A stretch of 64,000 nt of DNA, from the NCBI GenBank assembly GCA_029778715.1, contig JAKOPT010000125.1, positions 1 to 64,000 on the forward strand, in the 5' to 3' direction. The position numbers and the translations under genes are program-made. The notes under the pieces were generated by a model. That model was not told the origin of the DNA. It worked only from the letters and a program-made list of their open reading frames with translations, and ran no database searches. The number at the start of each line of letters is the position of its first letter. Position 1 is the stretch's first letter. This stretch comes from Actinomycetes bacterium (GTDB taxonomy: Bacteria; Actinomycetota; Actinomycetes; Actinomycetales; Dermatophilaceae). Shown in pieces: positions 1,202 to 22,521 of the stretch.

Positions 1202-1602
1202 TTCATCTCGATACGACTTTCCTGGTCGACGCGATCCGCGAATCCCGACGCGGACTCGAAGGCCCGGCTCGGCAGTGGCTCGCACGCAATCGCGGTGAGG
1301 CATTGGGATTGAGTGTCTTCGTTCGGGCCGAGATTCTCGTCGGTGCCGAACTCCACGCCGATCCCCTCGTAGAGCGTCGTCGCGTTCTGGCCGTGTGCGG
1401 TGATCTTCCCGTGGTGTTGCCGGACTCTCGACTCGCCGACACGTATGCCGCGGTTCACGCCAGCCTGCGCCGACAAGGAACGCCGTTGGCGACGATGGAC
1501 CTCCTGATTGCCTGCCTGGCCCTGAACGAGGGAGCGCCGCTGCTAACGGCCAATCGGAGCCACTTCTCCCGCATTCAGGGACTTCGTTTGCTCGAGTACT
1601 AG
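1198..1602 (+). CDS. vapC: VapC-family PIN-domain toxin ribonuclease
   Basis: A 134-residue PIN protein. Acidic active-site candidates are D5 (MIHLDTTFLVD), E45 region (VRAEILVGAE), D101 in ATMDLLIACLA and the N-rich LLTANRSHF end typical of VapC. It starts with GTG inside the antitoxin stop (GTGA), so production is coupled to VapB. This is a second, unrelated VapBC pair about 500 bp after the first; the two toxins differ through most of their length. RNA target unknown. Confidence 0.88.
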   Translation: MIHLDTTFLVDAIRESRRGLEGPARQWLARNRGEALGLSVFVRAEILVGAELHADPLVERRRVLAVCGDLPVVLPDSRLADTYAAVHASLRRQGTPLATMDLLIACLALNEGAPLLTANRSHFSRIQGLRLLEY

Positions 1603-1830
1603 AAAGTATCGAGTTGCCGTCGAGAGGAATGAGTTCCTGCCCGATGAACTCCAGTTCCGGGCGTGCGGTCTCATCCGCCGCCCCGCGAGACGTCACCGGG
1701 ATGATTTCTCGACCTGATTCGCTCTCGCGGAAGACGACACGTGGCTACGCATATGCGCCGGTTGGCTCGGCATGCCCAACACGAACCGTGGAAGCCGTGC
1801 CTTGCGCTGAGGTCCCTACACTGGGGTTTC

Positions 1831-2583
1831 ATGGGGCGGCATCATCTCCCGGGTTCGTCGGACAGCAGCCGAGTCATTCGGTCGCCCTCTCGGCATTCGC
1901 GCTGGCCTGTTGTCGCAATGTTGGTGCTAACAGCGTTGGTGCCAACAGCTATTGGCGGATGCTCCGGCCCGGTGTGGTCTACGCCTGGCGTCTCGTCGAC
2001 CGTGACTTCCGCGGCACCGGCCGCAGCGGCGCAAGGCGAGAGTCCGACAGCGAACGACTTCACCACGAACCCCGTGCCGTCACCAGGCCCGGTGACGACA
2101 GTTTCGCCGAGTCCGTCGGGAGCGTTTACGGCATACGTCAATGCGCGGTATCAATTCTCTGCCCTGCGCCCGGCCGGGTGGGACCTGCAGGAGTCCGCCA
2201 ACGGCGACGGAGCCACCATCACTTCACCTGACCGCGACGTGGAGATCGTGATCTTCGGCTCGAACAACCTCGGCGTCTCTTGCGAAACAGAAGGCGCGGC
2301 CCTCGATCTTCCGCGAACTCTCGCGCAGTGCTACTCGGCCGAGGAACGAAACCGGCGCGCCGAAGGTTCGAGCATTACCTACCAGGCGAAAGGCAACGAC
2401 TGGTTCGTCCTGTCCGGTCACCGGTCCGGGGGGCAGGTCTACTACCAGCGCAGTGTCATCGGTGCAGGCAGCATTGTGACGGCGATCTTGACCTACCCTC
2501 AGGACAAGACCAAGGCGATGGACGAGATCACCACGACCGTGTCGCTAAGCCTGCGGGCCAAGGGAACCGACGAACCTCACTAG
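1831..2583 (+). CDS. Probable secreted lipoprotein of unknown function
   Basis: Start placed at ATG 1831 because TACACT at 1817-1822 sits eight bases upstream, the leaderless arrangement. The 250-residue product has an arginine-containing N-terminus, a hydrophobic stretch (WPVVAMLVLTALVPTA) and a lipobox-like IGGC, followed by a Ser/Pro/Ala/Thr-rich linker as in actinobacterial surface lipoproteins. The C-terminal 140 residues (from AYVNARYQFSALRPAGW) look like a small beta-rich PsbP/Mog1-like extracytoplasmic domain, but this is only a resemblance. It carries one octamer (2129). No functional neighbour is evident. Confidence 0.65.
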   Translation: MGRHHLPGSSDSSRVIRSPSRHSRWPVVAMLVLTALVPTAIGGCSGPVWSTPGVSSTVTSAAPAAAAQGESPTANDFTTNPVPSPGPVTTVSPSPSGAFTAYVNARYQFSALRPAGWDLQESANGDGATITSPDRDVEIVIFGSNNLGVSCETEGAALDLPRTLAQCYSAEERNRRAEGSSITYQAKGNDWFVLSGHRSGGQVYYQRSVIGAGSIVTAILTYPQDKTKAMDEITTTVSLSLRAKGTDEPH

Positions 2584-2693
2584 ACCGTCACGGCATTGCC
2601 GCACACGGTGACGAAACGTACCCGGCATACCGGGCCTGCGACCGCGCCACGGGCGAAGGTAACGTTGGGGTTGCCACCACCTGGAGGTGAAGT

Positions 2694-3791
2694 ATGCCGC
2701 AGTTGCGAATTCCTACTGCCGTATCGACAGCACTGCAGCGGTTGCCGCTGCCAGGCCCTGGCCCGTTGCTCCCGCCGTCCTCCGAACTCATCGATTGGCC
2801 CTCGCAGTTGGCCCGACCGAGCCGGATCGCCTACTTCGCCTACTCGATCGACGGATACGACGGTGAGACAACCAATCAGGAGGACATCTTCGAAGTATCG
2901 CCGGTCACCGGAGCGATCCGGCGGATTACCGATGATCGTGCCAAGCCGACCGTGATCAGCGACCGGGATCCGGTGTGGGCGCCCAGCGGTACCCAACTCG
3001 CGGTGCATCGCGGGAGCGAGAACGGCCCCCCGGTCAGGGTGGAGATCATCTCCAGGAGCACCGGCGAAGTCGTGCAGCCGCTCGTCACCGGCTTCCGCCC
3101 CCGGTGGCTGGATGCGCACACCCTGCTGTACCTCAACACCGTCGGGTCCGACGGCCCGACTCCCCATGACGAGGTCTTCGCGGTCGAGCGGCACGGATTG
3201 GGCGTCACCCAGATCACCGATCTGGGACCGGCGATTCGGGTGAGCAGCCTCTCTTGGCACCCCAGCGCCGGGCTGGCGGTCGACTGCCTTGAGGTGGCCA
3301 CAAACCGGTTCGGCATCGCGCTCATCCCGGCGGCGGCGGTCGGGTCCGCCCGGGCGCCCGGCGGTAGCCCGGTCACTGCTGCCGGAATCACGTGGCTCAC
3401 CCCACCGGACCTGAACGTCGGAGAACCCGATTGGTCGCCCAACGGAGACCGGTTGGCGCTGTCGACGTGGATCGCCGACAGCCCAGGCCGGGTCGGCTAT
3501 TGGACGATCGCCGATGCCTCGCTGACGCTGGTGCCCGGGCCGGCGCCCGAGACCCCAACGCTGGAGGACGTGGGCGCGGTGTTCTCACCGGACGGTCGCT
3601 CGTTGGCGTTCTTGCGGGGAGCCGAGGACGGGTGGACCGAGATCTGGCTCTACCGGCTCCGCGATGGGGCGATGCGTCAACTCACCGACGAGGGTCGACA
3701 ACGTGCCAAGGCCCGGCTGGACTGGGGCTACGTCCGTTCCAGCTGGTGGCAACTGCCATGGGGGCCGATACCCTGGTGGCAGATGGGCTAG
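2694..3791 (+). CDS. TolB/PD40-type beta-propeller protein
   Basis: 365 residues with repeated blades of the form DPVWAPSGTQLAV, EPDWSPNGDRLALS and AVFSPDGRSLAFL, each followed by a strand such as IWLYRLRDGAMRQLTDEG. These are PD40/TolB-like propeller repeats. There is no signal peptide or membrane helix at the N-terminus, so it is probably cytoplasmic. The C-terminus is unusual, rich in tryptophan and proline (SSWWQLPWGPIPWWQMG). A good ribosome site (TGGAGGTGA) precedes the ATG, and that ATG is itself part of a GTATGCCG octamer. Substrate unknown. Confidence 0.7.
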   Translation: MPQLRIPTAVSTALQRLPLPGPGPLLPPSSELIDWPSQLARPSRIAYFAYSIDGYDGETTNQEDIFEVSPVTGAIRRITDDRAKPTVISDRDPVWAPSGTQLAVHRGSENGPPVRVEIISRSTGEVVQPLVTGFRPRWLDAHTLLYLNTVGSDGPTPHDEVFAVERHGLGVTQITDLGPAIRVSSLSWHPSAGLAVDCLEVATNRFGIALIPAAAVGSARAPGGSPVTAAGITWLTPPDLNVGEPDWSPNGDRLALSTWIADSPGRVGYWTIADASLTLVPGPAPETPTLEDVGAVFSPDGRSLAFLRGAEDGWTEIWLYRLRDGAMRQLTDEGRQRAKARLDWGYVRSSWWQLPWGPIPWWQMG

Positions 3792-3973
3792 CGCTCCTGA
3801 CCGGTGGCGACGCGGCATACGTGTGAGCCCATGACGCGGAACCGGCGAAAGGATGGCACGCAGACCGTACTTTCGGCCGGTCCAGGTCGAGCCTGAGGGC
3901 TGATGATCGTGGGGGCGATGCTCGGTCATCGTGGAGGAACCACGCACTCCACTCCCACGAAGGACCCACCAGC

Positions 3974-4429
3974 ATGACCACCCAGACAGCAACGCGCCCG
4001 TCGACCCGCACGGATCAGCCCGTTCCCCGTCAACTGAAACTCGCCGCGGCCTGGGCCAGTTTCATGTGCCTCTACATCTATGTCGACGTTCTCGGCCTCT
4101 ACAAGCCCGGCGCCGTCGAGGGCATCCTCAAGGGCCAGGTCTGGAAGTTCGACATCACCCAGGCCTTCGCCGTCAGTGCGCTGGCCAGTTCGGCGGTCCC
4201 GATCATGATGATCCTGCTCTCGACGACCTTGCCCGCGCGCGCCAACCGCCTGACCAACCTGGTCGTCGCGCTACTGCTCACCCCCTGGATGGCGTTCAAC
4301 CTGGCCGGCGGGGAGTGGCCGTTCTACTACGGCCTGGGATTCGCCCTCGAACTGATCATCCTCGCGTTCATCATCCGCTCGGCCTGGACCTGGCCGCGCA
4401 CGCCCGCGTTCCCTAGCCTGACACAGTGA
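3974..4429 (+). CDS. DUF6326-like four-helix membrane protein
   Basis: 151 residues with about four hydrophobic segments (LAAAWASFMCLYIYVDVLGLY, VSALASSAVPIMMILLS, LTNLVVALLLTPWMAFNLA, GLGFALELIILAFIIRSAW). It matches the pattern of small actinobacterial membrane proteins grouped as DUF6326. Function unknown. Its stop overlaps the GTG of the sensor kinase (GTGA), so the three genes to 6209 form one coupled unit; it might be the target or an accessory of that two-component system. Confidence 0.7.
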   Translation: MTTQTATRPSTRTDQPVPRQLKLAAAWASFMCLYIYVDVLGLYKPGAVEGILKGQVWKFDITQAFAVSALASSAVPIMMILLSTTLPARANRLTNLVVALLLTPWMAFNLAGGEWPFYYGLGFALELIILAFIIRSAWTWPRTPAFPSLTQ

Positions 4430-5565
4430 CAGCGAGTTGGCGCGCCCTGTGGCGCGAGCCTCGGCCCGCCGGCCCTCCGCCGGTGGGCCGCGGCGACTGG
4501 GTCATCGTCGCCGGATTCGAGGCGGCCGCGCTGTTCGAAGGCATCGTGCGCACGGACCTCACCTGGCGCCCCGTCGTCACCGTGCTCGCCATGGCCGTGA
4601 TGCCCCTCCTCCTCTGGCGCCGGAGCCACCCGCTGGCGGCCTGCCTGATCGGCTTCGGTGTCGCGGGGCTGCTCTCGGCGGTTCAGTTGGCCACCGGCAC
4701 CGCTGACCTCGGCCCCTCGTCGATGATGGTCATCTTGATCCTGCTCTACGCCCTGGTCCGCTGGGGCTCGGGACGCGAGATCGCCATCGGCCTGCCGGGT
4801 GTGGCCGCAGTCGTGGCGCTCGGCATGTATGCCGCATCCGTCGGTGTGGCCGACGCCATCGGTGGCACCCTCTTCGTGTCGCTGTTCATCGCGCTCGCAG
4901 CGGTATTCCGCTATCGGGCCGCCCTCTGGCAACGACAGCGGCGCGAGATCCGCAACGAGGAACGCCTCGCGCTCGCCCGCCAACTGCACGACACCGTCGC
5001 CCACCACGTCTCGGCGATCGCCGTGCAGGCCCAGGCCGGTGGGGTCGTGGCCCGCGCGCAGCCAGGTCAGGCCGTGGCGGCTCTCGCCACGATCGAGTCC
5101 GAGGCGACCCGCACCCTCGCGGAAATGCGGGCCATGGTGCGGGTGCTCCGCGACGACGGCGGGGAGGCCTACGCCCCGCAGCCGGGCGTCGCCGATCTGC
5201 CGGCGCTCGCCCGCTCCGACACCGGGCCGCGCGTCCGCCTGTCGCTGGCCGGGGCGCTCACCCAGTTGCCGGCGACCGTCGATGCCGCCATCTACCGGAT
5301 CGCGCAGGAGGCCGTCACCAATGCCGTGCGCCATGCGCGCGGCGCGACTCGAGTGGACATCGACGTATGCCGGGTGGGCGACGACATCAGGCTGCGCGTC
5401 ACCAACGATGGGATCGCCGTTGGCGGGTCGGGTGCGCGACCGGGATTCGGGGTGACCGGAATGGCCGAGCGTGCCCACCTCCTGGGCGGCTCCCTCGCCG
5501 CCGGTCCGGCGCCCCACGGTGGTTGGGTCGTGGAGGCCGTTCTCCCCGTGCAGGTTTCGCCATGA
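4426..5565 (+). CDS. NarL-family sensor histidine kinase
   Basis: 379 residues. The N-terminal 160 carry roughly five hydrophobic segments, then a short coiled region, then the HisKA_3 dimerisation box ARQLHDTVAHHV with phospho-acceptor H188. The HATPase part has an N-box EAVTNAVRHA near 290-300 and a G-box GFGVTGMAERAHLLGG near 345. This order is that of DesK/LiaS-type kinases sensing the membrane. It overlaps the response regulator start by ATGA. Stimulus unknown; co-transcription with the four-helix membrane protein is the only clue. Confidence 0.92.
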   Translation: MTASWRALWREPRPAGPPPVGRGDWVIVAGFEAAALFEGIVRTDLTWRPVVTVLAMAVMPLLLWRRSHPLAACLIGFGVAGLLSAVQLATGTADLGPSSMMVILILLYALVRWGSGREIAIGLPGVAAVVALGMYAASVGVADAIGGTLFVSLFIALAAVFRYRAALWQRQRREIRNEERLALARQLHDTVAHHVSAIAVQAQAGGVVARAQPGQAVAALATIESEATRTLAEMRAMVRVLRDDGGEAYAPQPGVADLPALARSDTGPRVRLSLAGALTQLPATVDAAIYRIAQEAVTNAVRHARGATRVDIDVCRVGDDIRLRVTNDGIAVGGSGARPGFGVTGMAERAHLLGGSLAAGPAPHGGWVVEAVLPVQVSP

Positions 5566-6209
5566 GTATCCGCGTGGTCGTCGCCGACGACCAGGACCTG
5601 GTGCGCATCGGGCTCGTGATGATCCTCGGCGCCCAACCCGGCATCGAGGTGATCGGGGAGGCCGCGGACGGCATACAGGCCCTTGAGGTGTGCACCCGGC
5701 TTCGTCCGGATGTCCTCCTCGTCGATATTCGCATGCCCGGCCTCGACGGGATCGAGGTGACCCGGAGGCTGGCGGGTCCCCAGGTGACCGACCCGATGGC
5801 GGTCGTGGTCATCACCACCTTCGACGTGGACGAGTACCTGCTTGGTGCCCTGCGTGCGGGCGCTCGTGGCTTCCTCCTCAAGGACGCCGGACCGGACCTG
5901 CTCGTCCAGGCCGTACACGCCGCCGCGAACGGGGACGCGCTGATCGCCCCCAATGTGACGCGGCGGCTGCTGGCCTCCCTCCTCGACCGCGCACCCGAGA
6001 GGCCGACCCAACCCATCGATCCGCTCACCGAGCGCGAGGAGGAGGTGTTGGCCCTGCTCGCGCGCGGCCGCACCAACGCCGAGATCGCCGCTGAGCTGTT
6101 CATCGGTCTGAGCACGGTCAAGAGCCATGTCGCCTCGTTGATGGCCAAACTCGGGGTCCGCAATCGGGTCGAGATCGCGATGTGGGCCTACCGGGCCAAA
6201 CGCGTCTGA
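5562..6209 (+). CDS. LuxR/NarL-family response regulator
   Basis: 215 residues. Receiver domain MSIRVVVADDQDLVR with acidic pair DD near 9-10, phospho-acceptor D55 in LLVDIRMPG, switch threonine in VVITTFD and lysine in FLLKDA. The C-terminal LuxR helix-turn-helix is LTEREEEVLALLARGRTNAEIAAELF with recognition helix STVKSHVASLMAKLG. Start ATG overlaps the kinase stop (ATGA). It should be phosphorylated by the adjacent kinase and regulate genes not identifiable here. The octamer at 5669 falls as GGC-ATA, using the rare Ile codon ATA. Confidence 0.93.
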   Translation: MSIRVVVADDQDLVRIGLVMILGAQPGIEVIGEAADGIQALEVCTRLRPDVLLVDIRMPGLDGIEVTRRLAGPQVTDPMAVVVITTFDVDEYLLGALRAGARGFLLKDAGPDLLVQAVHAAANGDALIAPNVTRRLLASLLDRAPERPTQPIDPLTEREEEVLALLARGRTNAEIAAELFIGLSTVKSHVASLMAKLGVRNRVEIAMWAYRAKRV

Positions 6210-6248
6210 CCGGGGCGTGCGACCATGCGCGCGCCGGCGTTGGGGGCC

Positions 6249-7052
6249 TCAGTGCGCGGACAGGGTGTAGACGTCCATGACCCAGCCGTGCTCGGCGCGC
6301 AACCGGGCCCGTAGGTCGATGACCTCATCGATGACGTCGGCCAGCCGGCCCGAGCGCAGTTCCTGCTGCGGCAGACCGACGTAGGCCCCCCAACGGAGCA
6401 TGAGGTCGGGGGCGACGTCGACCAAGTGGCGACAGGCCAGGTGACCATCGAGCATGACGACGATCGTGCCCAGGTCGATGTCGCCCGCCCGGGCGGTGGT
6501 CCATTCGTCGACCAGGCGGCGCCCGGTCGTCACATGGACCGGCTGCCCCACCTCGTGGAGGACGACCCCGTGCGCCGCGGCCAGCGCCTGGAACGCCGAA
6601 ATCCCCGGCACCACTCGCACGTCGAGCGGCATCCGCTCACCGATGGCATCGACCACCCGAATCGTGCTGTCGTAGAAGGCCGGATCGCCCCACACGAGGA
6701 ACCCGACGACCGTCTCCGGGGGCAGGGAGGCAATCGTCGCGGCATACGCATCGGCGCGGGCGCCGTGCCAGTCGCGCACCCCCTTCTCGTATGCCGCGGT
6801 GCCGCGTTGCGCGTCCGGCCCGCGTGTGGGGTCGGGCACCGTGACGAACCGGTAGGGATGATCGGCTGCGACGAACCGGTCGAGCATCATCCGGCGCACG
6901 GCGACCAGTTCGCCCTTGGTCTCGCCCTTGTCGGCGGCGAGGAAGACGTCGACCTCATTGAGCGCGGCGATCGCCTGCTGAGTCACGAACTGCGGCGACC
7001 CGGCCCCGATCCCGATGAGATAGACCGGACGGGCAGCGGGACGGGACGGCAC
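6249..7052 (-). CDS. cobF: Precorrin-6A synthase (deacetylating), CobF
   Basis: 267 residues of the tetrapyrrole methylase fold: VYLIGIGAGSPQFVTQQA at the N-terminus (SAM-site glycine loop), GFLVWGDPAFYDS, VRVVPGISAFQALAAAHG and the C-terminal GLPQQELRSG and HGWVMDVYTL segments characteristic of CobF rather than other Cob methylases. CobF methylates C-1 of precorrin-5 and removes acetate, a step of the oxygen-dependent B12 route. Start chosen at GTG 7052: TAGACT (minus strand, 7060-7065) lies seven bases upstream, so the message is probably leaderless and transcribed apart from cobQ. No cobalamin riboswitch is seen. Confidence 0.85.
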   Translation of the reverse strand: MPSRPAARPVYLIGIGAGSPQFVTQQAIAALNEVDVFLAADKGETKGELVAVRRMMLDRFVAADHPYRFVTVPDPTRGPDAQRGTAAYEKGVRDWHGARADAYAATIASLPPETVVGFLVWGDPAFYDSTIRVVDAIGERMPLDVRVVPGISAFQALAAAHGVVLHEVGQPVHVTTGRRLVDEWTTARAGDIDLGTIVVMLDGHLACRHLVDVAPDLMLRWGAYVGLPQQELRSGRLADVIDEVIDLRARLRAEHGWVMDVYTLSAH

Positions 7053-7159
7053 GACGGGCAGTCTAGGCGGAGAGGAGGGCCCGTACCTCGGCCAGGCCAT
7101 GCGTCCGTGCCCGCCCCGGCATCCGTCGGTCTCTCGTCGCCGTCTCGCACGGTCTCGTC

Positions 7160-7309
7160 GTACACAACCCACCTATTGGTCGATTGTTGACGGGGTTGGG
7201 GCCCGACGACCGCCCCTGTGGCGACTGCTCGTGGGCCAATGCTCGTGTGGCGACTGCTGCTGTGGTGTGTACACAATCCACCTATTGGTCGATTGTTGAC
7301 GGGGTCGGG
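7160..7309 (-). repeat. Pair of about 41-bp direct repeats, each containing a 24-bp dyad, between cobQ and cobF
   Basis: Copies at 7160-7201 and 7269-7309 differ at only two or three bases and are 109 bp apart. Within each is an interrupted dyad (7164-7187 and 7273-7296). Read on the minus strand, ACAATC pairs with GATTGT in one copy and with GGTTGT in the other, where the change keeps a G-U wobble; inside it ACC pairs with GGT around an AATA loop. A shorter repeat, TGTGGCGACTGCT, occurs twice between the copies. Possible operator sites or tandem RNA hairpins in the cobQ-cobF spacer. No known riboswitch family recognised. Confidence 0.7.
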
Positions 7310-7312
7310 CGG

Positions 7313-8752
7313 CTATTCGGGGCGGGCGGCCATCGCGAGGAGGGCGCCGAGGTCCACGTGGTCTTCGACGGCGTCGGCGAGGGTGTCGATCATGGCCTCC
7401 CGGCGGGCGGCGAACGAAGGGGCGTCGGCCGCGGGCCGCCACGACGACCCGGCCGCGGCTGCCACCTCGGTCAGCCAGGCTCGCCGGAACCCGTCGCACT
7501 CCAAGGTGCCGTGCCAAATCGTCCCGTACGTGCTGCCGTCGCGGGTGCCGCCGGGGAAGTTCGGCTCGGCCACGACCACACCGTGGTGAATTTCGTACCC
7601 CCGCACCTCCTCGCCGGCCCACTCACCGACCGGCCGGCCGAGCACCTTCTCCGCGCCGAAGGCGGTGCGGGCCGCCAGCGCCGCCAACCCGCCGACGAGC
7701 CCGGCGCCGGACTCGTGCTCGTCCTCGATGACGGTCCCCAACATCTCGTACCCCCCGCAGATCCCCAACACCGGCCGCCCCGCTGCGACCCGCTCCGCCA
7801 CCACCGCATCGAGCCCGCGCGCCCGCAGCCACGACAAGTCCGAGACCGTCGCCCGCGACCCCGGCAAGACGAGCAGGTCGGCGTCGCGGCATACCGAGGA
7901 ATCGGTGGTCACCCGCACCTCGACGCCCGGCTCGGCCGCCAGCGCGTCGACATCAGTGGCGTTCGAGGCCCGTGGGAACCGGACGACGGCGACCGTGAGC
8001 ACGGCGTCGTCACCACCACCAGGCACCCATCGCCCCACCGAGAGCGCGTCCTCGGAGTCCAGCCACACGTCCGTCAGCCACGGCAGGGTGCCCAGATGCG
8101 GCATACCGGTGCGAGCGCTCACCTCGGCCAGCCCCGGCGCCAACACCGACGGGTCGCCGCGGAACTTGTTGACGACGTAGCCGCGCAGCAACGCCCGGTC
8201 GGCCGGTTCGAGCAGCGCCCACGTCCCGAACAAGGCCGCGAGCGCCCCGCCGCGGTCGATGTCGGCCACCACGACCGTGGACAGCCCGAACCGCCGCGCC
8301 AACCCCATGTTGACGTAATCGCCGGCGCGCAAGTTGATTTCGGCCGGCGACCCGGCCCCCTCGCAGACCACGAGGTCGTAGCCGCCGCTCAGTTCCTCGT
8401 ATGCCGCGTATGCCGCCTGGGCGAGGTGGGCGCGCCCGGTCGCGTACTCGCCGGCGCCCAACTCGCCCGCCGGCGCCCCGCGCACGATGACGAAGGCGCG
8501 CCGGTCCGAGCCGGGCTTGAGCAGGACGGGGTTCATCGCCGAGGTGGCCTCCACGCGGGCCGCCTGGGCCTGGAGGTACTGCGCCCGCCCGATCTCGGAG
8601 CCGTCCGCACACACCATCGAGTTGTTCGACATGTTCTGCGACTTGAACGGTGCGACCGACACCCCGGCACGGGCCCAGGCCCGGCACAACCCGGTGACGA
8701 CGAGGGACTTGCCCGCATCCGAACTCGTCCCGGTCACCAGCAGCCCAGCCAC
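7313..8752 (-). CDS. cobQ: Adenosylcobyric acid synthase (glutamine-hydrolysing), CobQ
   Basis: 479 residues, the normal CobQ length. N-terminal dethiobiotin-synthetase-like ATPase: MAGLLVTGTSSDAGKSLVVTGL, then PFKSQNMSNNSMV and INLRAGDYVNMG, all CobQ signatures. C-terminal class I glutamine amidotransferase with nucleophile Cys in VLGICGGYEMLG and catalytic His in YEIHHG. It amidates four side-chain carboxylates of adenosylcobyrinic diamide with glutamine. Start at ATG 8752. Divergent from the phosphatase at 8776 with only 23 bp between start codons, so the two promoters must overlap each other's genes. Confidence 0.95.
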   Translation of the reverse strand: MAGLLVTGTSSDAGKSLVVTGLCRAWARAGVSVAPFKSQNMSNNSMVCADGSEIGRAQYLQAQAARVEATSAMNPVLLKPGSDRRAFVIVRGAPAGELGAGEYATGRAHLAQAAYAAYEELSGGYDLVVCEGAGSPAEINLRAGDYVNMGLARRFGLSTVVVADIDRGGALAALFGTWALLEPADRALLRGYVVNKFRGDPSVLAPGLAEVSARTGMPHLGTLPWLTDVWLDSEDALSVGRWVPGGGDDAVLTVAVVRFPRASNATDVDALAAEPGVEVRVTTDSSVCRDADLLVLPGSRATVSDLSWLRARGLDAVVAERVAAGRPVLGICGGYEMLGTVIEDEHESGAGLVGGLAALAARTAFGAEKVLGRPVGEWAGEEVRGYEIHHGVVVAEPNFPGGTRDGSTYGTIWHGTLECDGFRRAWLTEVAAAAGSSWRPAADAPSFAARREAMIDTLADAVEDHVDLGALLAMAARPE

Positions 8753-8775
8753 CCGAGCACCCTACAGTGGCGGGC

Positions 8776-9417
8776 GTGACCACGCCCGATCCCGACCAGC
8801 GCGGCCACGCCGTCACCGTCCACCTCGTGCGCCACGGCCAGTCGACATGGAACGTCGAGGGCCGCCTCCAGGGGCAGACGCCCCACCCCGGTTTGACCGA
8901 TCTGGGCCGGGCCCAGGCGCGGGCTGCCGGCGACCGGCTCGCCGCGCTCGTGCCGACCAGCGCCCCCGACGAGGTGGCCCTGTGGAGCAGCGACCTCACC
9001 CGTGCCCGCCAGTCCGCCGAACTCGTCGCCGACCGGCTCGGCTTGCCGCACAGCCACATTCGCATCGATCCGGCGCTGCGCGAACAAGCCCTCGGCGACC
9101 TCGAAGGCGCGCTGACCAGCGATCTCGACGCCGACCCCGTCCCGCCGCCACCGGGGAAGCACCTCGCCGACATCCGCTGGGGCGGCCCCGCGAGCGAGAG
9201 CGTGCGCGACGTCGACGCCCGGATCGCGGCATACCTCGCCCGCGCCCTGCCGACCGCGCCAGCCCACCTCATCCTGCTCACCCACGGCGACACCTTGCGG
9301 ATCCTCCACGCCCGCCTCACCGGCCGCAGCTACCGCGACCTCGACTGGGACCTGCCGATCCCCAACGGGGCCGTCGTCACCGTCAATTCGGTCGAGCCAC
9401 CCGCGCACCCCCGGTAG
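8776..9417 (+). CDS. Histidine phosphatase (phosphoglycerate mutase-like), possibly CobC-type
   Basis: 213 residues. Catalytic RHG at VHLVRHGQSTWN, second arginine/glutamate region WSSDLTRARQSAEL, proton donor E in LREQALGDLEG and second histidine LLTHGDTLRIL. Start taken at GTG 8776: TACAGT (8763-8768) is seven bases upstream, while the alternative GTG at 8767 overlaps that hexamer. Family members include phosphoglycerate mutases, general phosphatases and alpha-ribazole phosphatase (CobC). The back-to-back position with cobQ makes a CobC role attractive but unproven. Confidence 0.8.
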   Translation: MTTPDPDQRGHAVTVHLVRHGQSTWNVEGRLQGQTPHPGLTDLGRAQARAAGDRLAALVPTSAPDEVALWSSDLTRARQSAELVADRLGLPHSHIRIDPALREQALGDLEGALTSDLDADPVPPPPGKHLADIRWGGPASESVRDVDARIAAYLARALPTAPAHLILLTHGDTLRILHARLTGRSYRDLDWDLPIPNGAVVTVNSVEPPAHPR

Positions 9418-9669
9418 ACTTGGCCCACCAGCGTTCGAGCCGTTATCAGCGGCGAGCTTCCGGAAGAACGGCGGACCCCCGCTCACTAGACCCGGACGTC
9501 GGGGCCACGTCAGTGCCTTGTGCAAGAGCGGTCGTATGCCGTGCGCCCCCCGGGGTGAGCGGCCGCGGCAAGCGAGGTGGTACCGCGGAGGCGGGCACCC
9601 GGCATACGCGCCGGTGCTTGGTTTCGTCCTCGTGCAGACGAGAGCGACGACCGCAGGAGAGCCCCACCC
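9415..9669 (+). promoter_or_regulatory. Isoleucine T-box leader upstream of ileS
   Basis: A -10 hexamer TAGACT at 9415-9420 shares its TAG with the stop of the preceding gene. The 240-nt leader contains a stem I specifier-loop candidate ATC followed by A (9445-9447), the isoleucine codon, and the conserved T-box core GAGGTGGTACCGCGG at 9574-9588 that pairs with the tRNA acceptor end. Downstream there is no U-run terminator. A hairpin around CTCGTGCAGACGAG and the nearby GGAGAG ribosome site suggest the translational (sequestrator) T-box type usual in actinobacterial ileS. An inverted octamer pair (9534-9541 and 9600-9607) can pair around the T-box. Confidence 0.9.
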
Positions 9670-12600
9670 ATGACCTACCCCAAGGTCTCCACGTCCCAGA
9701 CCGACGCCCCCGCCGGCCAGGCCCTCGGCGTGCCCGCCAGCCCTCGCTTCCCGCAGATCGAGGAGGCCGTGCTGCGCTACTGGGAGGCCGACGGCACCTT
9801 CCAGGCGTCCATCGACCAGCGCCCGGCCGGTGAGAACGGCGACAACGAGTTCGTCTTCTACGACGGCCCGCCCTTCGCCAACGGCCTGCCGCACTACGGG
9901 CACCTGCTCACCGGCTACGTCAAGGACATCGTGCCGCGCTACCAGACGATGCGCGGTCGGCGCGTCGAACGCCGCTTCGGCTGGGACACCCACGGCCTGC
10001 CCGCCGAGCTCGAGGCGATGAGCCAACTCGGCATCAAGACCAAGGACGAAATCCTCGACCTGGGGATCGAGGCCTTCAACGAGAAGTGCCGCGAGTCGGT
10101 GATGAAGTATGCCGCGGACTGGCGGGCCTATGTCACCCGCCAGGCGCGTTGGGTGGACTTCGACCACGACTACAAGACCCTCAACCCCGACTTCATGGAG
10201 TCGGTGCAATGGGCTTTCAAGAGCCTCTACGACCAGGGCTTGGTCTACGAGGGTTTCCGGGTGCTGCCCTACTGCTGGAACGACCAGACCCCACTGTCCA
10301 ACGCCGAGTTGCGCATGGACGAGGACGTCTACCAGGTGCGCCAGGACCCGGCGGTCACCCTCGGGTTGCGCCTGTCGACCGGCGAGTTGGCCCTGGTGTG
10401 GACGACGACGCCGTGGACCCTGCCGGCGAACCTGCTCATCATGGTCGGGGAGGACATCGACTACGTCGTCGTCGAGTCCGACGTCCCGACCGGGGTGAGC
10501 GAGCGCTATATCCTCGCCGCGGCCCGGGCCTCGGCGTTCGCTCGCGAACTCACCGGGTCCGCCGACGGTGACGTCGAGGCGCTCGTCGTCGAGCGGCTCA
10601 CCGGGGCCGACCTCGTGGGCCGCACCTACACCCCGCCGTTCTCCTATTACGCCGGCCATGAGCGCGCCTTCCGGGTGGTCGCCGCCGAGTTCGTCACGAC
10701 GACCGACGGCACCGGGCTGGTCCACACCGCTGGCGCGTTCGGTGAGGACGACAAGGTCGTCACCGACCGCGAGGGTGTCGAACCGGTCATGCCGGTCGGC
10801 GCCGACGGCTGTTTCACCGCGCCGGTGGAGGAGTATGCCGGGCTGCTCGTCTTCGACGCCAACGCCCCGATCCTCGATGACCTCAAGGCCGCCAACCGGG
10901 GCGAGCGCGCCGGCTCGGTCAGTCCGGGGACGGTGTTGCTGCGCCGGGAGAGTTACGCCCACTCCTACCCGCACTGCTGGCGCTGCCGTGAACCCCTCAT
11001 CTACAAGGGGGTCTCGTCCTGGTTCGTCGAGGTGACGAAGTTCAAGAAGCGGATGGGCGAACTCAACCAGGAGATCACCTGGGTGCCCGAGCACGTCAAG
11101 GACGGTCAGTTCGGCAAGTGGCTGGCCAATGCGCGCGACTGGTCGATCTCGCGGAACCGCTTCTGGGGCAGCCCGATCCCGGTGTGGCGTTCGGACGATC
11201 CGGCATACCCCCGCCTGGACGTCTACGGCTCCTTCGAGGAGTTGGAGCGTGACTTCGGCCGGCTGCCGCGCAACCGGCGCGGCGAACCCGACCTGCACCG
11301 GCCCTACATCGACGAGTTGACCCGGCCCAACCCGGACGACCCGCGCCCGGAGGGGCAGCGCTCGACGATGCGCCGCGTCGAGGACGTCCTCGACGTGTGG
11401 TTCGACTCGGGCTCGATGAGTTTCGCCCAGGTCCACTACCCGTTCGAGAACCGCGACTGGTTCGAGCACCACTACCCGGGTGACTTCATCGTCGAATACA
11501 TCGGGCAGACCCGCGGCTGGTTCTACACCCTCCACATCCTCGCCACCGCCTTGTTCGACCGGCCGGCGTTCAAGACCTGTGTCTCGCACGGCATCGTCCT
11601 GGGCAGCGACGGGCTCAAGATGAGCAAGTCCCGGCGCAACTACCCCGACGTGTCCGAGGTGTTCGACCGGGACGGCGCCGACGCGATGCGCTGGTTCCTC
11701 ATGTCCTCCCCGATCCTGCGCGGCGGCAACCTGATCGTCACCGAGCAGGGGATCCGCGAGGGCGTGCGCCAGGTGCTCATCCCGCTGTGGAACTCGTGGT
11801 ACTTCTTCTCGCTCTACGCCAACGCCTTCCGCGGCGGCGAAGGGTATACCGCCCGCTGGCGCACCGATTCGGCCGACCCGCTCGACCGCTACCTGCTGGC
11901 CAAGACGCGCCGGCTCGTCGAGCAGGTCCAGGCCCAGCTCGACGTCGAGGACATCGCCGGGGCCTGCGAATCGGTGCGGGTCTTCACCGACGTGCTCACC
12001 AACTGGTACATCCGGCGCAGCCGCGAACGCTTCTGGGACACGGGCACCGACGGTGAGAGCGCGGCATACGACGCGTTCGATACCCTCTACACGGTCCTCG
12101 AGGTGCTGTGCCGGGTGGCCGCCCCGCTCCTGCCGTTGACAACCGAGGAGATCTGGCGCGGCCTCACCGGTGAGCGCTCGGTCCACCTCGCCGACTGGCC
12201 GGTCGCGGCCGACCTGCCCAGCGACGATGCGCTCGTCGCGGCCATGGACGAGGTGCGCACCGTGTGCTCGGTGGGCTCCTCGCTGCGCAAGGCCGAAGGG
12301 TTGCGGGTGCGGTTGCCGCTGGCGCAGCTGACCGTGGTCGCTCCCGAGGCGGCCGGGCTGGAGCCGTTTGCCGGCATCGTCGCCGACGAACTCAACGTCA
12401 AGGCTGTCCGTCTCCTCGACGTCGCCGAGGCCCACGAGTCCGACTTCGGCATCCGGCAGCGGTTGACCGTCAACGCCCGCGCGGCCGGCCCGCGCCTGGG
12501 CAAGGACGTCCAGGCCGTGATCCGTGGCAGCAAGAGCGGCGACTGGTCGGTGGCTGCCGACGGCACGGTCGTCAGCGCCGGGATCGCGTTGGTCGAGGGT

Positions 12601-12984
12601 GAGTATGCCGTGGAGACCGTCGTCGACGAGGCCGCCGGTGGGGCGCAGGCGACGGCGATGCTGCCCGGCGGCGGGTTCGTCGTCCTCGACACCGCCGTGA
12701 CCCCGGAGTTGGAGGCCGAAGGGCTGGCCCGTGACCTCATTCGGGCCGTGCAGCAGGCGCGCCGCGATGCCGGGCTCGACGTGTCGGACCGGATCGCGTT
12801 GACGCTCGCCGGCGGTGAGGAGGTGCGTTCGGCGGCGCAGGTTCATCGTGATCTGATCGCCGCCGAGACCCTGGCTGCGGAGTTCGAGGTCTTGGGTGCC
12901 CTTGATGCGCTTGCTTCGGCTGGCGTCACCGAGGCGGTTGTGGGCACCGGCCTGCCCGTGCAGGTGCGGGTCGCCAAGCGCTGA
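9670..12984 (+). CDS. ileS: Isoleucyl-tRNA synthetase
   Basis: 1104 residues, class I synthetase of the long bacterial/eukaryote-like type. HIGH signature as PHYGH near residues 74-78, editing (CP1) domain, tryptophan-rich [16 protein letters not shown], and KMSKS at about 650 ([11 protein letters not shown]), then anticodon-binding domain and DUF5915-like tail. Charges tRNA-Ile. Start at ATG 9670 after GGAGAGCC; earlier in-frame codons lie inside the T-box core. Five octamers lie within it (10107, 10833, 11201, 12062, 12603), encoding Tyr-Ala or Ala-Tyr with rare TAT/GCA codons or ProAlaTyr. Confidence 0.97.
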
Positions 12985-12994
12985 GCCCGATGCC

Positions 12995-13030
12995 GGGTGG
13001 CGGTCCGTTGTGCGTCGCGGACCGCCACCC
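12995..13030 (+). terminator. Hairpin terminator after ileS
   Basis: Perfect 13-bp stem GGGTGGCGGTCCG (12995-13007) with CGGACCGCCACCC (13018-13030), loop of 10 bases, starting 11 bp after the ileS stop. No U-run follows, as is common for actinobacterial I-shaped terminators. Confidence 0.75.
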
Positions 13031-13076
13031 CGGGCGGCCTACCGTGCAGTCCCGGGCGGTCTACCGTGCAGTACGT

Positions 13077-13766
13077 GGGGTGATCACCCCACCTTCTGCA
13101 GGGAAGCCTGCGCGGGCGGTGCTGGATGACCGTGCCGGGGCGGCGAGGTCGCGCGATTCGAGCGAATTCGGCGCGGGCGAGGCGGTAGTGGCAGTGCTGG
13201 TGGGCCGTGCCGGGGCGGCGAGGTGGCTTGAGTCGGGCGCTGGGGGGCGGCAGGGGGCGGAGGAGGGCTCGCGCTCACGCACCCGTCGTTGTGGGGGAGT
13301 CCCATGGGTCGCATGTGTCTCATGGGGCTCAGGTGTCACGTCGCGTGCCCGTGCTCGTGGTTGATGCTGCGCTCTACCCTGCAGAAGGTGGGGTGATCAC
13401 CCCACCTGGTGCAGGGGAGCATGCACGGGCGGCTCCGGATGGCCGTGCCGGGGCGGCGAGGCGGCGCGTTTCGGGCGAATTGGGTGGGGGTGAGGCGGTA
13501 GTGGCAGTGCTGATGGGCCGTGCCGAGCGGCGAGGCGGCGTGAGTCGGGCTCTGGGGAGGGCAAAAGGGGCGGAGGAGGGTTCGTGCTCAGTCACTCCTG
13601 GCTGTCGGGGTAGTCCCAGGGGTCGCATGTGTCTCATGGGGCTCAGGTGTTATGTCGCGTGCCCGTGCTCGTGGTTGACGCTGCGCTCTCCCCTGCACCA
13701 GGCGGGGTGATCACCCCACCTGGTGCAGGGGAGCCCGCACGGGCGGCGCTGGATGGCCGTGCCGAG
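13077..13766. repeat. Tandem about 313-bp repeats, each headed by a long palindrome centred on TGATCA
   Basis: Non-coding block between ileS and the helicase. Two full units (about 13077-13389 and 13390-13703) and a partial third (to 13766), about 85% alike by eye. Each begins with GGGGTGATCACCCC. In units two and three the dyad extends to 40 bp (13377-13416) and 46 bp (13688-13733, one mismatched pair), palindrome centres 313 and 314 bp apart. A 22-bp tandem (13031-13074) precedes the block. Within each unit GGCCGTGCCGGGGCGGCGAGG-like text recurs. No convincing frame runs through it, no octamer copy lies in 12611-14200, and no CRISPR-like unit size is present. Confidence 0.85.
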
Positions 13767-13768
13767 AG

Positions 13769-13864
13769 GTGCTGGTGGAGTGTCCCGGCCCGGCCTACGG
13801 GTGCTGGTGGAGTGTCCCGGCCCGGCCCACGGGTGCTGGTCAGAGTGTCCTGGCCAGCCGACTG
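13769..13864. repeat. 32-bp tandem repeat, 3 copies (last degenerate)
   Basis: Units 13769-13800 and 13801-13832 differ at one base; 13833-13864 is a degenerate third. Core GTGCTGGTGGAGTGTCCCGG. It lies between the 313-bp repeat block and the stop codon of the convergent helicase gene. Confidence 0.8.
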
Positions 13865-13883
13865 GGTCTGGCGAGCAGCATCG

Positions 13884-16454
13884 CTACAGACGGCGCAGGG
13901 CCGTGGCGGCGAGCACGAGTTCGCCGCACTCGTCGCTGGCGTCGAGGTCGGCCACGGCCTCGATGACCCAGTCGTGATCGCCAGCGGGGTCGGCCAGGGT
14001 CTGGCGAACGAGCCACCGACGCTCGCCCGGCTCTGCATCCGGGTCCTCGCCCACCGCCAGCAGCGCCGGGCCGCGCGCATCGGCGTCGAGCAGGATCTCG
14101 GCGTGCTCGTCCCAGTACGCGCCCAACGCCGCATCCCACGCCGAGGCGTCCATGACGACCGGTGGCGGCGGGTCGGTGAGCGCAGCGCGAGCGAGCTCGA
14201 CGGCATACAGGCCCTCGACATCGTCGCGGGCGGCCAACTCCACGAGGCGCCACATCGCCTTGCGGATGAGGGTGCGGACCACGGCGACGTTGGCGCTGAG
14301 CGGTCGCGGCGGGCGCGGTCCTTCGCCCTCGTGAGTCACCGGAGCGCGCCCAGGGTCGGCCAGCGCCTCCCACTCGTCGACGAGCGAGGAGTCCGTCTGG
14401 CGCACCGACTCCCCGAGCCACTCGACGATCTGAGCCAACGCCTCCGAGCCGTGCGCCTCCGGCACGCTCTGGCGCAACGTCCGGTAGGCGTCACTGAGGT
14501 AGCGCAACACGACCCCTTCGGAGCGGGCCAGCCCGTAGCGCCCGATGAGGTCGGTGAAACTCAGCCCCTGCTCCCACATCTGGCGGACAACCGACTTGGG
14601 GGAGAGAGCATCGTCGGGCAACCACGGGTGGGCGCGGCGATAGTCCGCGTATGCCGCCTCCAGCAGGTCCGCGAGCGGGCGCGGCCAGGTGACCTCCTCG
14701 AGCAACTCCAGACGCTCCTCGTACTCCACCCCGTCGGCCTTCATCTCGGCCACCGCCTCACCGCGGGCCGCCCACTGCTGCGCCAACAACACCGGACGCG
14801 GGTCATCGAGCACCGACTCGATCACCGAGACGACATCGAGGGCGTGGTCGGGGGAGTCCGGGTCGAGTAACTCCAGCGCGGCGAGAGCGAAATGGGCCAG
14901 CGGCTGGTTGAGCGCGAAGTCCTCGGGCAGGTCGACCGCCAACTCGACGGTGCGCCCGTCCGGCCCGGGCTCGGGCAGCCGCACCAGCACCCCGGAGTCG
15001 AGCAGGCTGCGGCCCAAGCGCAGAGCGCGCCGCGCCAGGCGGGCTTGCGCGACTGGAGACTCGTGGTTGTCGCGGACGAGTCGGCTCAGGGCCCGCACCG
15101 GGTCACCAGGGCGGGCGACGACGCCGAGGATCATCGCGTTGTCGATGCGCATCCGCGACTGCAGCGCCTCGGGGGCCGCGTGGACGAGCCGCTCGAAGGT
15201 CGCCTCGGTCCACACGACGGTCCCCGGCTCGGGTTTGACCCGTTGGACCCGCTTGAGTTTGACCGGGTCATCGCCCGCCTTGGCGACCCGGCGCGCATTC
15301 TCGATGAGGTGCGCGGGCGCCTGGACGACGACCTCCCCGGTGGTGTCGAAGCCGGCCCGCCCGGCGCGCCCGGCGATCTGGTGGAACTCGCGGGCCTTGA
15401 ACACCCGGTCCCGGTGCCCGTCGAACTTGACCAACCCGGTGAAGAGCACCGTGCGAATCGGGACGTTGATCCCGACCCCGAGGGTGTCGGTGCCGGCGAT
15501 CACCTTGAGCAGTCCCGCCTGTGCCAGTTGCTCGACGACGCGCCGATAGCGCGGCAGCATCCCCGCGTGGTGGACCCCAATCCCCTTGCGCAGCAGCGCG
15601 ACGAGGGTCCTCCCGAACCCTGCGGCAAACCGGATGCCGCCCACTCGCCGCGCGATCTCGGCCTTCTCCGCCGCGGTGAGCAGGGAGAGCCCCCGCAGCG
15701 ACTGGGCCTGCTCGGCCGCTGCGGCCTGGGTGGCGTGGACGATGTAGACCGGGGCTCGGCGGGTCGTGACGATCTCCTCGACCATCTCCGGCAGCGGTGT
15801 GACCGACCAGGTGAAACTCAGCGGCACCGGGCGGTGGGCGCCGGCGACCTCGGACACGTCGCGGCCGGTGCGGCGGGTCAGGTCCGCCCGGATGGCCGTG
15901 GTGTCGCCGAGGGTCGCCGACATGAGGAGAAACTGCGCCTGCGGGAGTTCGAGCAGCGGCACCTGCCAGGCCCAGCCGCGCTGCGGGTCGGCGTAGTAGT
16001 GGAACTCGTCCATGACGACCAGGCCGACGTCGGCTCCGGCCCCCTCGCGCAGCGCAATGTTGGCGAGCACCTCGGCGGTGCAGGCGATGATCGGCGCGTC
16101 CGGGTTGACGCTCGCATCGCCGGTGAGCAGCCCGACCTGATCGGCCCCGAAGACGTCGACGAGGTCGAAGAACTTCTCGTTGACCAGGGCCTTGATGGGA
16201 GCGGTGTAGAAACTCACCCGGTCCGCGGCCAGGGCCCCGAGGTGGGCGGCGGTCGCCACGAGGGACTTGCCCGATCCCGTGGGTGTCGACAGCACGACGT
16301 GGTTGCCCGCGAGCATCTCGACGATGGCCTCGTCTTGATGGGGATAGAGATGTATGCCGCGCCCGCTCACCCAAGCCGTGAACGCGGCATACACCTCATC
16401 CGGGTCGGCGCTTGCGCAACTCAACTGCGCGGCTACCTCGTGGGGCAGATCCAC
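13884..16454 (-). CDS. Superfamily II DEAD/DEAH RNA helicase with DUF3516 C-terminus
   Basis: 856 residues, close to the usual length of the actinobacterial DUF3516 helicases. Walker A TGSGKS (K63), motif II DEFH near 150 followed by YYADP, motif III LLMSATLGD, motif VI QIAGRAGRAGFD; the Ski2-like core covers about the first 400 residues and the rest is the DUF3516 region. Ski2-like folds act in RNA turnover or processing; the specific job is unknown. Start GTG 16454. An 11-bp inverted octamer pair (16351-16393) lies in the 5' coding part. Ends convergent with the repeat block. Confidence 0.88.
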   Translation of the reverse strand: MDLPHEVAAQLSCASADPDEVYAAFTAWVSGRGIHLYPHQDEAIVEMLAGNHVVLSTPTGSGKSLVATAAHLGALAADRVSFYTAPIKALVNEKFFDLVDVFGADQVGLLTGDASVNPDAPIIACTAEVLANIALREGAGADVGLVVMDEFHYYADPQRGWAWQVPLLELPQAQFLLMSATLGDTTAIRADLTRRTGRDVSEVAGAHRPVPLSFTWSVTPLPEMVEEIVTTRRAPVYIVHATQAAAAEQAQSLRGLSLLTAAEKAEIARRVGGIRFAAGFGRTLVALLRKGIGVHHAGMLPRYRRVVEQLAQAGLLKVIAGTDTLGVGINVPIRTVLFTGLVKFDGHRDRVFKAREFHQIAGRAGRAGFDTTGEVVVQAPAHLIENARRVAKAGDDPVKLKRVQRVKPEPGTVVWTEATFERLVHAAPEALQSRMRIDNAMILGVVARPGDPVRALSRLVRDNHESPVAQARLARRALRLGRSLLDSGVLVRLPEPGPDGRTVELAVDLPEDFALNQPLAHFALAALELLDPDSPDHALDVVSVIESVLDDPRPVLLAQQWAARGEAVAEMKADGVEYEERLELLEEVTWPRPLADLLEAAYADYRRAHPWLPDDALSPKSVVRQMWEQGLSFTDLIGRYGLARSEGVVLRYLSDAYRTLRQSVPEAHGSEALAQIVEWLGESVRQTDSSLVDEWEALADPGRAPVTHEGEGPRPPRPLSANVAVVRTLIRKAMWRLVELAARDDVEGLYAVELARAALTDPPPPVVMDASAWDAALGAYWDEHAEILLDADARGPALLAVGEDPDAEPGERRWLVRQTLADPAGDHDWVIEAVADLDASDECGELVLAATALRRL

Positions 16455-16503
16455 GCGCGGGCTCCTCGTCGTCGTTTGCCGGCTCCGATCGACGCGCCCG
16501 AAC

Positions 16504-20628: not shown

Positions 20629-20669
20629 CCGGCCGATCGGTGTCGGCCCTCCGTGGCAGGCTAGCGCCC

Positions 20670-21629: not shown

Positions 21630-21646
21630 CCTGGTTCGTTCCGGTT

Positions 21647-22520: not shown

Positions 22521-22521
22521 C

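Follow-up and report, generated by a model that had tools for sequence, protein, structure and literature searches.

A candidate uptake-sequence-like octamer, with dialects, in two high-G+C Gram-positive families

Introduction

Why should one octamer recur throughout 64 kb of bacterial DNA, and do so at the expense of codon choice? The question is raised by positions 1 to 64,000 of contig JAKOPT010000125.1 (assembly GCA_029778715.1, an Actinomycetes bacterium of the Dermatophilaceae), hereafter termed the window, in which the word GTATGCCG, or its complement CGGCATAC, is found from end to end. A preliminary description of the window had proposed that the octamer occurs in all reading frames, that it forces codons otherwise avoided, and that selection therefore acts on the DNA word rather than on the protein. 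As contig C38, the window belongs to a draft genome of 3.08 Mb (83 % complete, 162 contigs), which was compared herein with genomes and loci of related bacteria. The octamer emerges as an apparent genome-wide signature of self-DNA, subject to a strong drive or to selection at the DNA level, and is most likely a word resembling a DNA uptake sequence (DUS), a reading over which our confidence is evenly divided.

Abundance and codon effects of the octamer

The window contains 103 copies (1443..63991, both strands), compared with 5.0 expected under an order-3 Markov model; read along the forward strand, 55 are GTATGCCG and 48 are CGGCATAC. The 1680 rearrangements of the same composition average 2.6 copies, and the runner-up amongst them, with 34, overlaps GTATGCCG. 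Across the whole genome the two orientations number 2081 and 2124 (4205 copies), as opposed to 54 and 69 (123) for the reversed word. Over-representation on both strands, one of the features by which an uptake sequence is recognised, is hence present.

Genes were modelled with our own codon-usage caller (57 in the window; no standard annotation), which misses some genes and sets some starts too late. Within these models lie 77 of the copies, with all six phases represented, as the preliminary description had it: GTATGCCG is found in phases 2, 0 and 1 on 44, 4 and 2 occasions, respectively, and CGGCATAC in phases 1, 2 and 0 on 18, 5 and 4. The predominance of Tyr-Ala and Ala-Tyr readings is likewise evident, with TAT-GCC or GCA-TAC at 62 of the 77. 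Density is greater outside than inside gene models, both in the window (2.85 versus 1.40 per kb) and in the closed genome G002, which belongs to the same genus (1.15 versus 0.67 per kb), the outside values being upper bounds because the caller leaves some real genes uncalled.

Codons wholly inside the octamer make up 0.86 % of those in the window, yet include 44 of 87 TAT (Fisher P 2e-69), 5 of 7 ATA (P 9e-10), 4 of 16 GTA (P 9e-6) and 18 of 68 GCA codons (P 2e-22). Outside it, ATA accounts for 0.3 % of Ile codons, GTA for 0.6 % of Val, GCA for 2.1 % of Ala and TAT for 14 % of Tyr; the avoidance that had been claimed for these codons is therefore borne out, albeit mildly for TAT, and the comparison of codon fractions that had been suggested as a check finds them concentrated within the word, not equally frequent beyond it. 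In 400 kb of G002 the 0.40 % of codons inside the octamer take in 119 of 518 TAT, 17 of 36 ATA, 3 of 57 GTA and 60 of 968 GCA, the concentration of GTA and GCA being weaker than in the window.

The same is seen when each synonymous choice is followed in the context where it would complete the word. At G-TAY-GCC-G, the window together with locus L208 uses TAT in 53/53 cases (56/399 elsewhere), G002 in 119/131 (398/1935 elsewhere) and G033 in 27/34 (6/512 elsewhere); in comparison genomes the figures are 0/18 (the word-poor G003), 3/33 (G024), 1/21 (G025) and 1/8 (G027). For the genome of the window, where the counts that follow include eight short loci fetched for containing the octamer and are thereby slightly biased, CAT is chosen in 13/13 instances of CGG-CAY-AC (116/679 elsewhere), GTA in 5/5 of GTN-TGC-CG, GCA in 37/44 of CG-GCN-TAC as against 0/34 in other GCN-TAC, and ATA in 6/21 of xC-GGC-ATH-C as against 7/1118 elsewhere and 0/83 across five comparison sets. 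The corresponding fractions in G002 are 9/11 (CAT), 4/7 (GTA), 66/93 (GCA) and 21/64 (ATA), with weaker contexts in G001 (GTA 0/2, GCA 12/20) and G033 (GTA 1/5, CAT 0/4). These counts show that a force acts upon the octamer at the level of DNA, with the completing synonymous codon usually taken wherever the protein permits. That force may be either selection or molecular drive through biased uptake, the two being indistinguishable here.

The protein is affected as well. Observed-to-expected ratios for the Tyr-Ala dipeptide are 1.37, 1.39, 1.18 and 1.20 in the word-rich G000, G001, G002 and G033, respectively, and 0.78, 1.03, 1.09, 0.86 and 1.04 in five word-poor or other-dialect sets; the octamer therefore also nudges protein sequence. 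Thus, whilst the proposal that selection acts on the DNA word holds insofar as a DNA-level force is concerned, its second half, that the protein is not the target, needs to be qualified. The comparison of aligned orthologues that had also been suggested is weak at the distances available, with a mean protein identity of 68-77 % in nine relatives (one further relative, 91 % identical, contributes a single gene, and Austwickia has no orthologue). At these distances, 96 comparisons of window copies give 63 amino-acid changes, 13 shared copies, 13 synonymous-only differences and 7 gaps, and 18 comparisons of relatives' copies give 13 shared, 4 amino-acid changes, 1 gap and no synonymous-only difference.

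Two explanations can be judged from these data. The first is that the word is a by-product of codon bias or of a protein motif, namely frequent Tyr-Ala and Ala-Tyr pairs, as the readings of those 62 coding copies might imply; it is refuted by the concentration of rare codons inside the octamer, by copies lying beyond genes as well as in every phase, and by relatives that have the same dipeptides without the word, and can safely be set aside. The second is that the octamer arises from biased mutation or repair, for example through deamination of methylated cytosine turning GTACGCCG into GTATGCCG. A pool of word-rich genomes (G000, G001, G002, G009, G019, G023 and G033) was compared in this regard with nine word-poor genomes, and GTACGCCG is indeed scarcer in the former (68 per Mb) than in seven of the latter (86-175); the remaining two, G025 and G024, have 341 and 536 per Mb, bringing the whole word-poor pool to 274. 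However, choices that are not C to T are also forced, as the ATA, GTA and GCA counts above attest. As ATC to ATA is a transversion, a cytosine-deamination bias is not the whole cause, and the enrichment of Tyr-Ala pairs themselves argues in the same direction, making such an origin highly improbable.

Distribution and dialects

Of 36 genomes sampled from the family of the window's genome (its own included), 21 have more than 200 copies of GTATGCCG per Mb, although one of these, G017, reaches only 2.5 times its reversed-word control. GTATGCCG stands at 44-81 per Mb in G018, G021 and G022, and below 40 per Mb in the other 12. None of 22 sampled genomes from other families exceeds 65 per Mb. Loci of named relatives, by which the family can be placed, were found via LepA, and amongst the 11 so derived (from the best 80 of 591 confirmed loci) the octamer is enriched in nine, which belong to Tetrasphaera (now Nostocoides, Intrasporangiaceae), Terrabacter (two), Arsenicicoccus, Intrasporangium, Ornithinimicrobium (two) and Serinicoccus (two; Ornithinimicrobiaceae). 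No enrichment is seen at the other two of the 11, from Austwickia and Janibacter Soil728.

Variant words, all non-palindromic, occupy the place of GTATGCCG or accompany it. In whole-genome counts five genomes out of 58 have more than 100 copies of GTATGACG per Mb, and each of the five is rich in GTATGCCG too. For GTATGNCG, in which position 6 is open, a 136-kb pool of G005, G006, G013 and G028 has C at 689, A at 374, G at 220 and T at 161 per Mb, and group A displays an excess of mismatches at position 6 that resembles a relaxed dialect. GGATGCCG has 3949 copies in G027 and 3816 in G018 as opposed to 260-1336 in the other 34 family genomes. It is also abundant in family f19, which we infer to be Microbacteriaceae-like: 12 of its 13 genomes carry 407-1321 per Mb and the thirteenth, G102, 147, with a maximum of about 290 per Mb in the remaining 185 of 198 genomes searched. 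Of the 13 named Microbacteriaceae loci behind this assignment (a label that uses the lineage of Microbacterium flavescens), three are clearly rich in GGATGCCG (L081, 16 versus 3.7 expected; L084, 19 versus 3.6; L054, 22 versus 3.0), L066 is moderately so (11 versus 2.5), and nine are not clearly rich (0-8 copies). GTACGCCG, with 2216 copies in G024 and 1359 in G025 compared with 39-752 in the other 39 genomes searched, is a tentative dialect of these two genomes, since TAC-GCC is in any case the codon pair of choice; at CG-GCN-TAC, G024 favours GCG (26/36 versus 30/69, P 0.007), whilst G025 has no preference (12/24).

The GGATGCCG dialect is enforced by synonymous choice in the same manner as GTATGCCG. 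G027 uses GAT in 38/52 instances of G-GAY-GCC-G (108/2632 elsewhere; 2/13 in its sister, G023), and stretches from five f19 genomes do so in 56/67 (445/2534 elsewhere). On a tree of 20 genomes, built from six proteins of the comEC neighbourhood including comEC itself, G027 is sister to the GTATGCCG-bearing G023 with a support of 1.00, such that sister genera are one base apart. Word-rich and word-poor genomes interleave on this tree. G003, with 29 copies of GTATGCCG, clusters at a support of 0.88 with G001 and G002, G019 being the next to join. Dialects thus relate to phylogeny, as those of uptake sequences do, with the interleaving of rich and poor genomes and the tentative standing of GTACGCCG as qualifications. 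There are also 11 of the 36 family genomes that are rich in no dialect (G003, G004, G008, G010, G011, G012, G015, G016, G021, G022 and G029).

G003 (L149, L224, L243-L247) is a case apart, being nearly devoid of GTATGCCG despite its word-rich neighbours and having a partial excess of GGATGCCG (1336 copies) with partial enforcement of it (GAT 10/29 in G-GAY-GCC-G versus 111/2306 elsewhere); it is possibly a genome caught between dialects. Separately, the small genomes of family f4 (e.g. G101, G115, G168 and G222) contain GGATGCCG at 4-8 times the reversed control, as either a codon effect or a further dialect.

The density and patchiness of these words call to mind the cyanobacterial HIP1, likewise an octamer. 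In the cited part of PMC4390886, HIP1 and its replacements occur at some 500-2500 per million bases, with deviating genomes bearing variant words that match other methyltransferases. By analogy, GTATGCCG could contain the site of an orphan DNA methyltransferase, its dialects representing changed enzyme specificity. The HIP1-type words named there, variants included, are however palindromic and tied to methyltransferase sites, whereas the octamer is non-palindromic in every dialect; on palindromy alone, which is what was examined, an explanation of this kind is unlikely, if still to be taken seriously.

Strand, spacing and context

Around 82 intergenic copies in G002 the flanking consensus is roughly S-GTATGCCG-Y-G-n-G, and it is weaker around 36 in the genome of the window. 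In 20 evenly spaced 20-kb stretches of G002, the two strands have 151 and 153 copies. There is no replichore polarity in this one closed genome, as even the best choice of origin places 54.6 % on one side. No clear preference for any intergenic class is apparent either, with 1.03-1.35 per kb in the three classes of G002 and 1.53-2.95 in the smaller set from the window's own genome. Pairs less than 60 bases apart are inverted in 13 of 15 cases in the G002 sample, nine of these being intergenic and some having longer hairpin stems, and in 5 of 8 cases in the own-genome set. Even spacing was considered as a further property; the coefficient of variation is 0.82 in the window and 1.12 in pooled G002, and no claim is made for it.

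Chi sites are non-palindromic words with species variants, and the octamer, abundant, similarly non-palindromic and differing by one base between lineages, might be a word that an end-resection nuclease recognises, either Chi-like or with another part in the control of recombination. The strand and replichore counts from G002 stand against this, as does the distribution of RecC (PF04257), which is found in 16 of 62 genomes: 5 of 21 word-rich family genomes (G002, G013, G026, G028 and G032), 7 of 15 other family genomes (G008, G011, G012, G015, G021, G022 and G025) and none of the 13 of f19. A RecBCD Chi site is disfavoured on both grounds, the search for a cognate enzyme having covered RecC, and a recombination-control word in general is improbable. 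We think comparably little of a binding site for an abundant chromosome-organising or nucleoid protein, which would sit well with a chromosomal word on both strands that is scarce in foreign DNA. Apart from the lack of polarity and of a clear intergenic-class preference, such a protein would have to recognise an exact site of 8 bases that recurs every ~600-1200 bases and differs by one base from lineage to lineage.

Mobile DNA and interrupted tadA genes

Recently acquired DNA is poor in the octamer, as would be looked for in an uptake sequence, and this is seen at three interruptions of tadA. In G033, a 57.8-kb insert (G033:C1:2163156-2220998; L318, L319, L328-L330) splits the gene and contains 4 octamers, compared with 34.9 expected from genome density (P 5e-11); there are 9 across 18 kb of flanking DNA, and 12-16 in each of five other 20-kb stretches. 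From our reading of the predicted proteins, the insert's genes include TnsA/B/C-like examples. In G006, tadA is broken at its P-loop codons (L320/L211); past the break, 48 kb spread over two contigs hold no octamers, whilst the native sides hold 8 each, within 6.8 kb and 11.5 kb, respectively. Another tadA, that of G009, has an 11-kb insert with genes that read as recombinase-like; this insert has 1 octamer versus 12.4 expected, the surrounding 9 kb having 11. Phages are near background for both GTATGCCG (Tetrasphaera phage TJE1, 2 versus 0.6; Microbacterium phage Min1, 1 versus 1.1) and GGATGCCG (7 versus 4.2 and 5 versus 4.9, respectively).

Altogether, tadA is interrupted or truncated in seven genomes (G033, G006 at L320/L211, G169 at L321, G008 at L310, G009 at L350, G029 on C23 and G019 at L354). 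Six of the seven breaks are near the same P-loop codons (about 186-194 of the model), that of G033 being elsewhere, and the inserted DNA differs where it was read. The interruptions are reminiscent of mobile elements in the competence genes of other bacteria. In G102 (L217), the word-poor f19 genome, Flp, TadC, TadE and TadF are gone from beside tadA and a transposase-like gene is nearby, with a weak Flp match on another contig; G211 (L216), a word-rich member of the same genus, keeps all four. In G004 (L308), G021 (L225) and G026 (L313), tadC and flp are separated by approximately 2-6 kb of extra DNA, the location being the same in all three.

Competence genes

Competence machinery is present, as the uptake of DNA would require, although it is found in word-poor genomes too. 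A comEC-type match was obtained in 54 of 58 genomes (all but the word-rich drafts G030, G034 and G035, and G045), and the presence of comEC, being shared by word-poor genomes, was ruled out as a discriminating gene. A DUF4244 Flp pilin is found in 45 of 49 genomes (all but the incomplete word-rich drafts G030, G031, G032 and G034), and T2SSF in 48 of 49 (not G008). All 49 have a match to TIGR03819 (TadA), which in 41 is above the curated cut-off. PilM, as a marker of type IVa pili, occurs in 16 of 70 genomes, does not track the octamer and was likewise dismissed.

The tad locus was scored in 40 fetched stretches. Amongst word-poor genomes, G008 lacks TadB/C and half of TadA, G016 has a truncated TadB, G015 has TadF in two frames, and G004 and G021 have inserts between TadC and Flp; the word-rich G026 does likewise. 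A single TadA match characterises G008, G015 and G016, but also the word-rich drafts G032 and G034, and tadA is interrupted in the word-rich G006 and G033. With seemingly complete or near-complete loci in some word-poor genomes and damaged loci in some word-rich ones, a link between octamer and tad is suggestive at best. Because comEC and tad are also present in word-poor genomes, no examined gene tracks the octamer. When the surroundings of comEC in 10 word-rich genomes were compared with those in 10 others (G027 amongst these), no word-rich-only cluster occurred in more than 3 of 10.

Individual copies in the window

On the forward strand, GTATGCCG begins at 1443, 2692, 4827, 5365, 6789, 8399, 8408, 9534, 10107, 10833, 12603, 14649, 16352, 18603, 20271, 20792, 21575, 22764, 24073, 24160, 24471, 24950, 26602, 26954, 27179, 30531, 31853, 32604, 32799, 32985, 33478, 35453, 36864, 37795, 37860, 41931, 43434, 43503, 45039, 47730, 48297, 49334, 50787, 51447, 52341, 53044, 55394, 56111, 56760, 58184, 59022, 59773, 60835, 62174 and 63329. 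On the same strand, CGGCATAC begins at 2129, 2623, 3813, 5669, 6740, 7887, 8099, 9227, 9600, 11201, 12062, 14201, 16385, 16857, 18398, 20800, 21786, 23395, 24411, 26505, 29347, 29835, 31181, 32181, 34631, 34838, 36575, 38381, 40728, 42046, 42882, 44733, 45098, 47597, 47987, 48516, 50254, 50904, 51655, 54575, 56329, 56917, 57756, 58826, 58913, 61498, 62725 and 63984.

Several of these illustrate the codon effect, and re-reading of the sequence confirms the positions and codons first reported for five. A sensor histidine kinase gene (HisKA_3, HATPase_c; 4426..5565, +) harbours the copy at 5365..5372 (+), read GTA-TGC-CGG, and the adjoining LuxR-type response regulator gene (Response_reg, GerE; 5562..6209, +) that at 5669..5676 (-), where the forward-strand frame is GAC-GGC-ATA-CAG (C-GGC-ATA-C). 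ATA is also forced, as GGC-ATA, at 23395..23402 (-), in an aminotransferase gene (23186-24382), and at 32181..32188 (-) and 50904..50911 (-). Two further copies had been described as containing the start ATG of a gene, and both ATGs are in frame; that at 2694, within the copy at 2692..2699 (+), is a likely start, with GGAGGTGA just upstream, whilst that at 31855, within 31853..31860 (+), is merely plausible, the caller having chosen 31915. A head-to-head pair, GTATGCCG-CGGCATAC, at 20792..20807 generates a perfect 16-base inverted repeat inside a holA-like gene (20670-21629), and a direct pair, nine bases apart, lies at 8399..8415 (+). In the region 18415-21629 it is a DinG-like helicase, and not comEC, that precedes holA; this genome has a comEC match on contig C158 and a fragment of one where contig C37 begins.

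Discussion

A word that is abundant on either strand and shows no polarity, has one-base dialects, is enforced at the level of DNA and is scarce in mobile DNA may be regarded as having the profile of an uptake sequence, and we infer uptake to be the force behind the octamer. A competence receptor, for which the Flp/Tad pilus with ComEA/ComEC is a candidate, would prefer DNA that bears the word; donor fragments carrying it would be taken up and recombined more often, and such preferential uptake would accumulate copies wherever proteins tolerate them. There is a precedent for the pilus in the actinobacterium Micrococcus luteus, whose transformation needs two tad clusters and ComEC according to the cited part of PMC4322843. 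A more specific proposal, which we hold a shade less firmly than the general one and slightly short of even confidence, is that of a DUS system with at least three dialects in two high-G+C Gram-positive families (one Intrasporangiaceae/Ornithinimicrobiaceae-type, the other Microbacteriaceae), probably read by a Flp/Tad-type competence pilus.

Several observations weigh against an uptake word. The near-complete synonymous saturation exceeds what would be expected from uptake bias alone, and any chromosomal word that accumulates slowly would be scarce in recently arrived DNA. One-mismatch forms, which are over-represented for known uptake sequences in the cited part of PMC1939737, show no excess here, at 683 per Mb in the word-rich pool versus 850 in the word-poor (615 versus 576 when GTACGCCG is excluded), an absence that would fit either a very strong drive or selection acting directly upon exact copies. 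Close pairs are not above random expectation (15 versus 14.0 in G002; 8 versus 13.8 in the own-genome set). No receptor was found amongst the genes examined, none of which separates word-rich from word-poor genomes, the Flp/tad locus being complete or nearly so in the word-poor G003, G011, G012, G022 and G029; the word-rich drafts without a comEC or Flp match are, for their part, 58-95 % complete.

Set beside the DUS of Neisseriaceae, as portrayed in the cited sections of PMC3630211, the octamer shares a short, non-palindromic form in thousands of copies (2245-3603 for DUS dialects) within and between genes, few-base dialects that follow phylogeny, a family in which some genomes have none, and perhaps head-to-head pairs, which for DUS are reported at terminators. 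It differs in length (8 bases as opposed to 10-12), in its high-G+C Gram-positive hosts, in lacking a near-miss excess in the main clade and in its near-complete synonymous saturation, and a ComP-like receptor for it is, like its uptake, hypothetical. The Neisseria 12-mer also contains ATGCCG, which is probably a coincidence. The uptake signal sequence (USS) of Pasteurellaceae has a similar density, with 1014 USS10 per Mb in Haemophilus influenzae 86-028NP in the cited part of PMC7811141, and a role in distinguishing self from non-self such as is proposed for the octamer; it belongs to another phylum, has over-represented near-miss forms, unlike the octamer, and has had its uptake measured. 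From Chi sites the octamer differs in its lack of polarity, and RecC is absent from 16 of the 21 word-rich family genomes and from all of f19.

Uptake sequences are described for two Gram-negative families, Pasteurellaceae and Neisseriaceae, in the same part of PMC7811141, and it is for Neisseria that they are mentioned in the cited part of a DNA-uptake review in which M. luteus is also treated (PMC6370729). A search of the open full-text literature found no description of the octamer among the matches listed. The closest precedent for the codon effect is reportedly the study by Findlay and Redfield (2009) of uptake sequences and proteomes.

Should the octamer prove to have no part in uptake, it would still have to be explained what fills synonymous sites with it, almost to saturation, across two families. 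If it is an uptake word, such a word shapes codon and dipeptide usage genome-wide in these bacteria, their dialects are obstacles to gene flow that the sequence itself reveals, and a Tad-type pilus can be sequence-selective; adding the 8-mer is then suggested as a simple aid for transforming actinobacteria that are hard to manipulate. Sequence-selective sex would, in that event, have evolved in the Actinomycetota as well.

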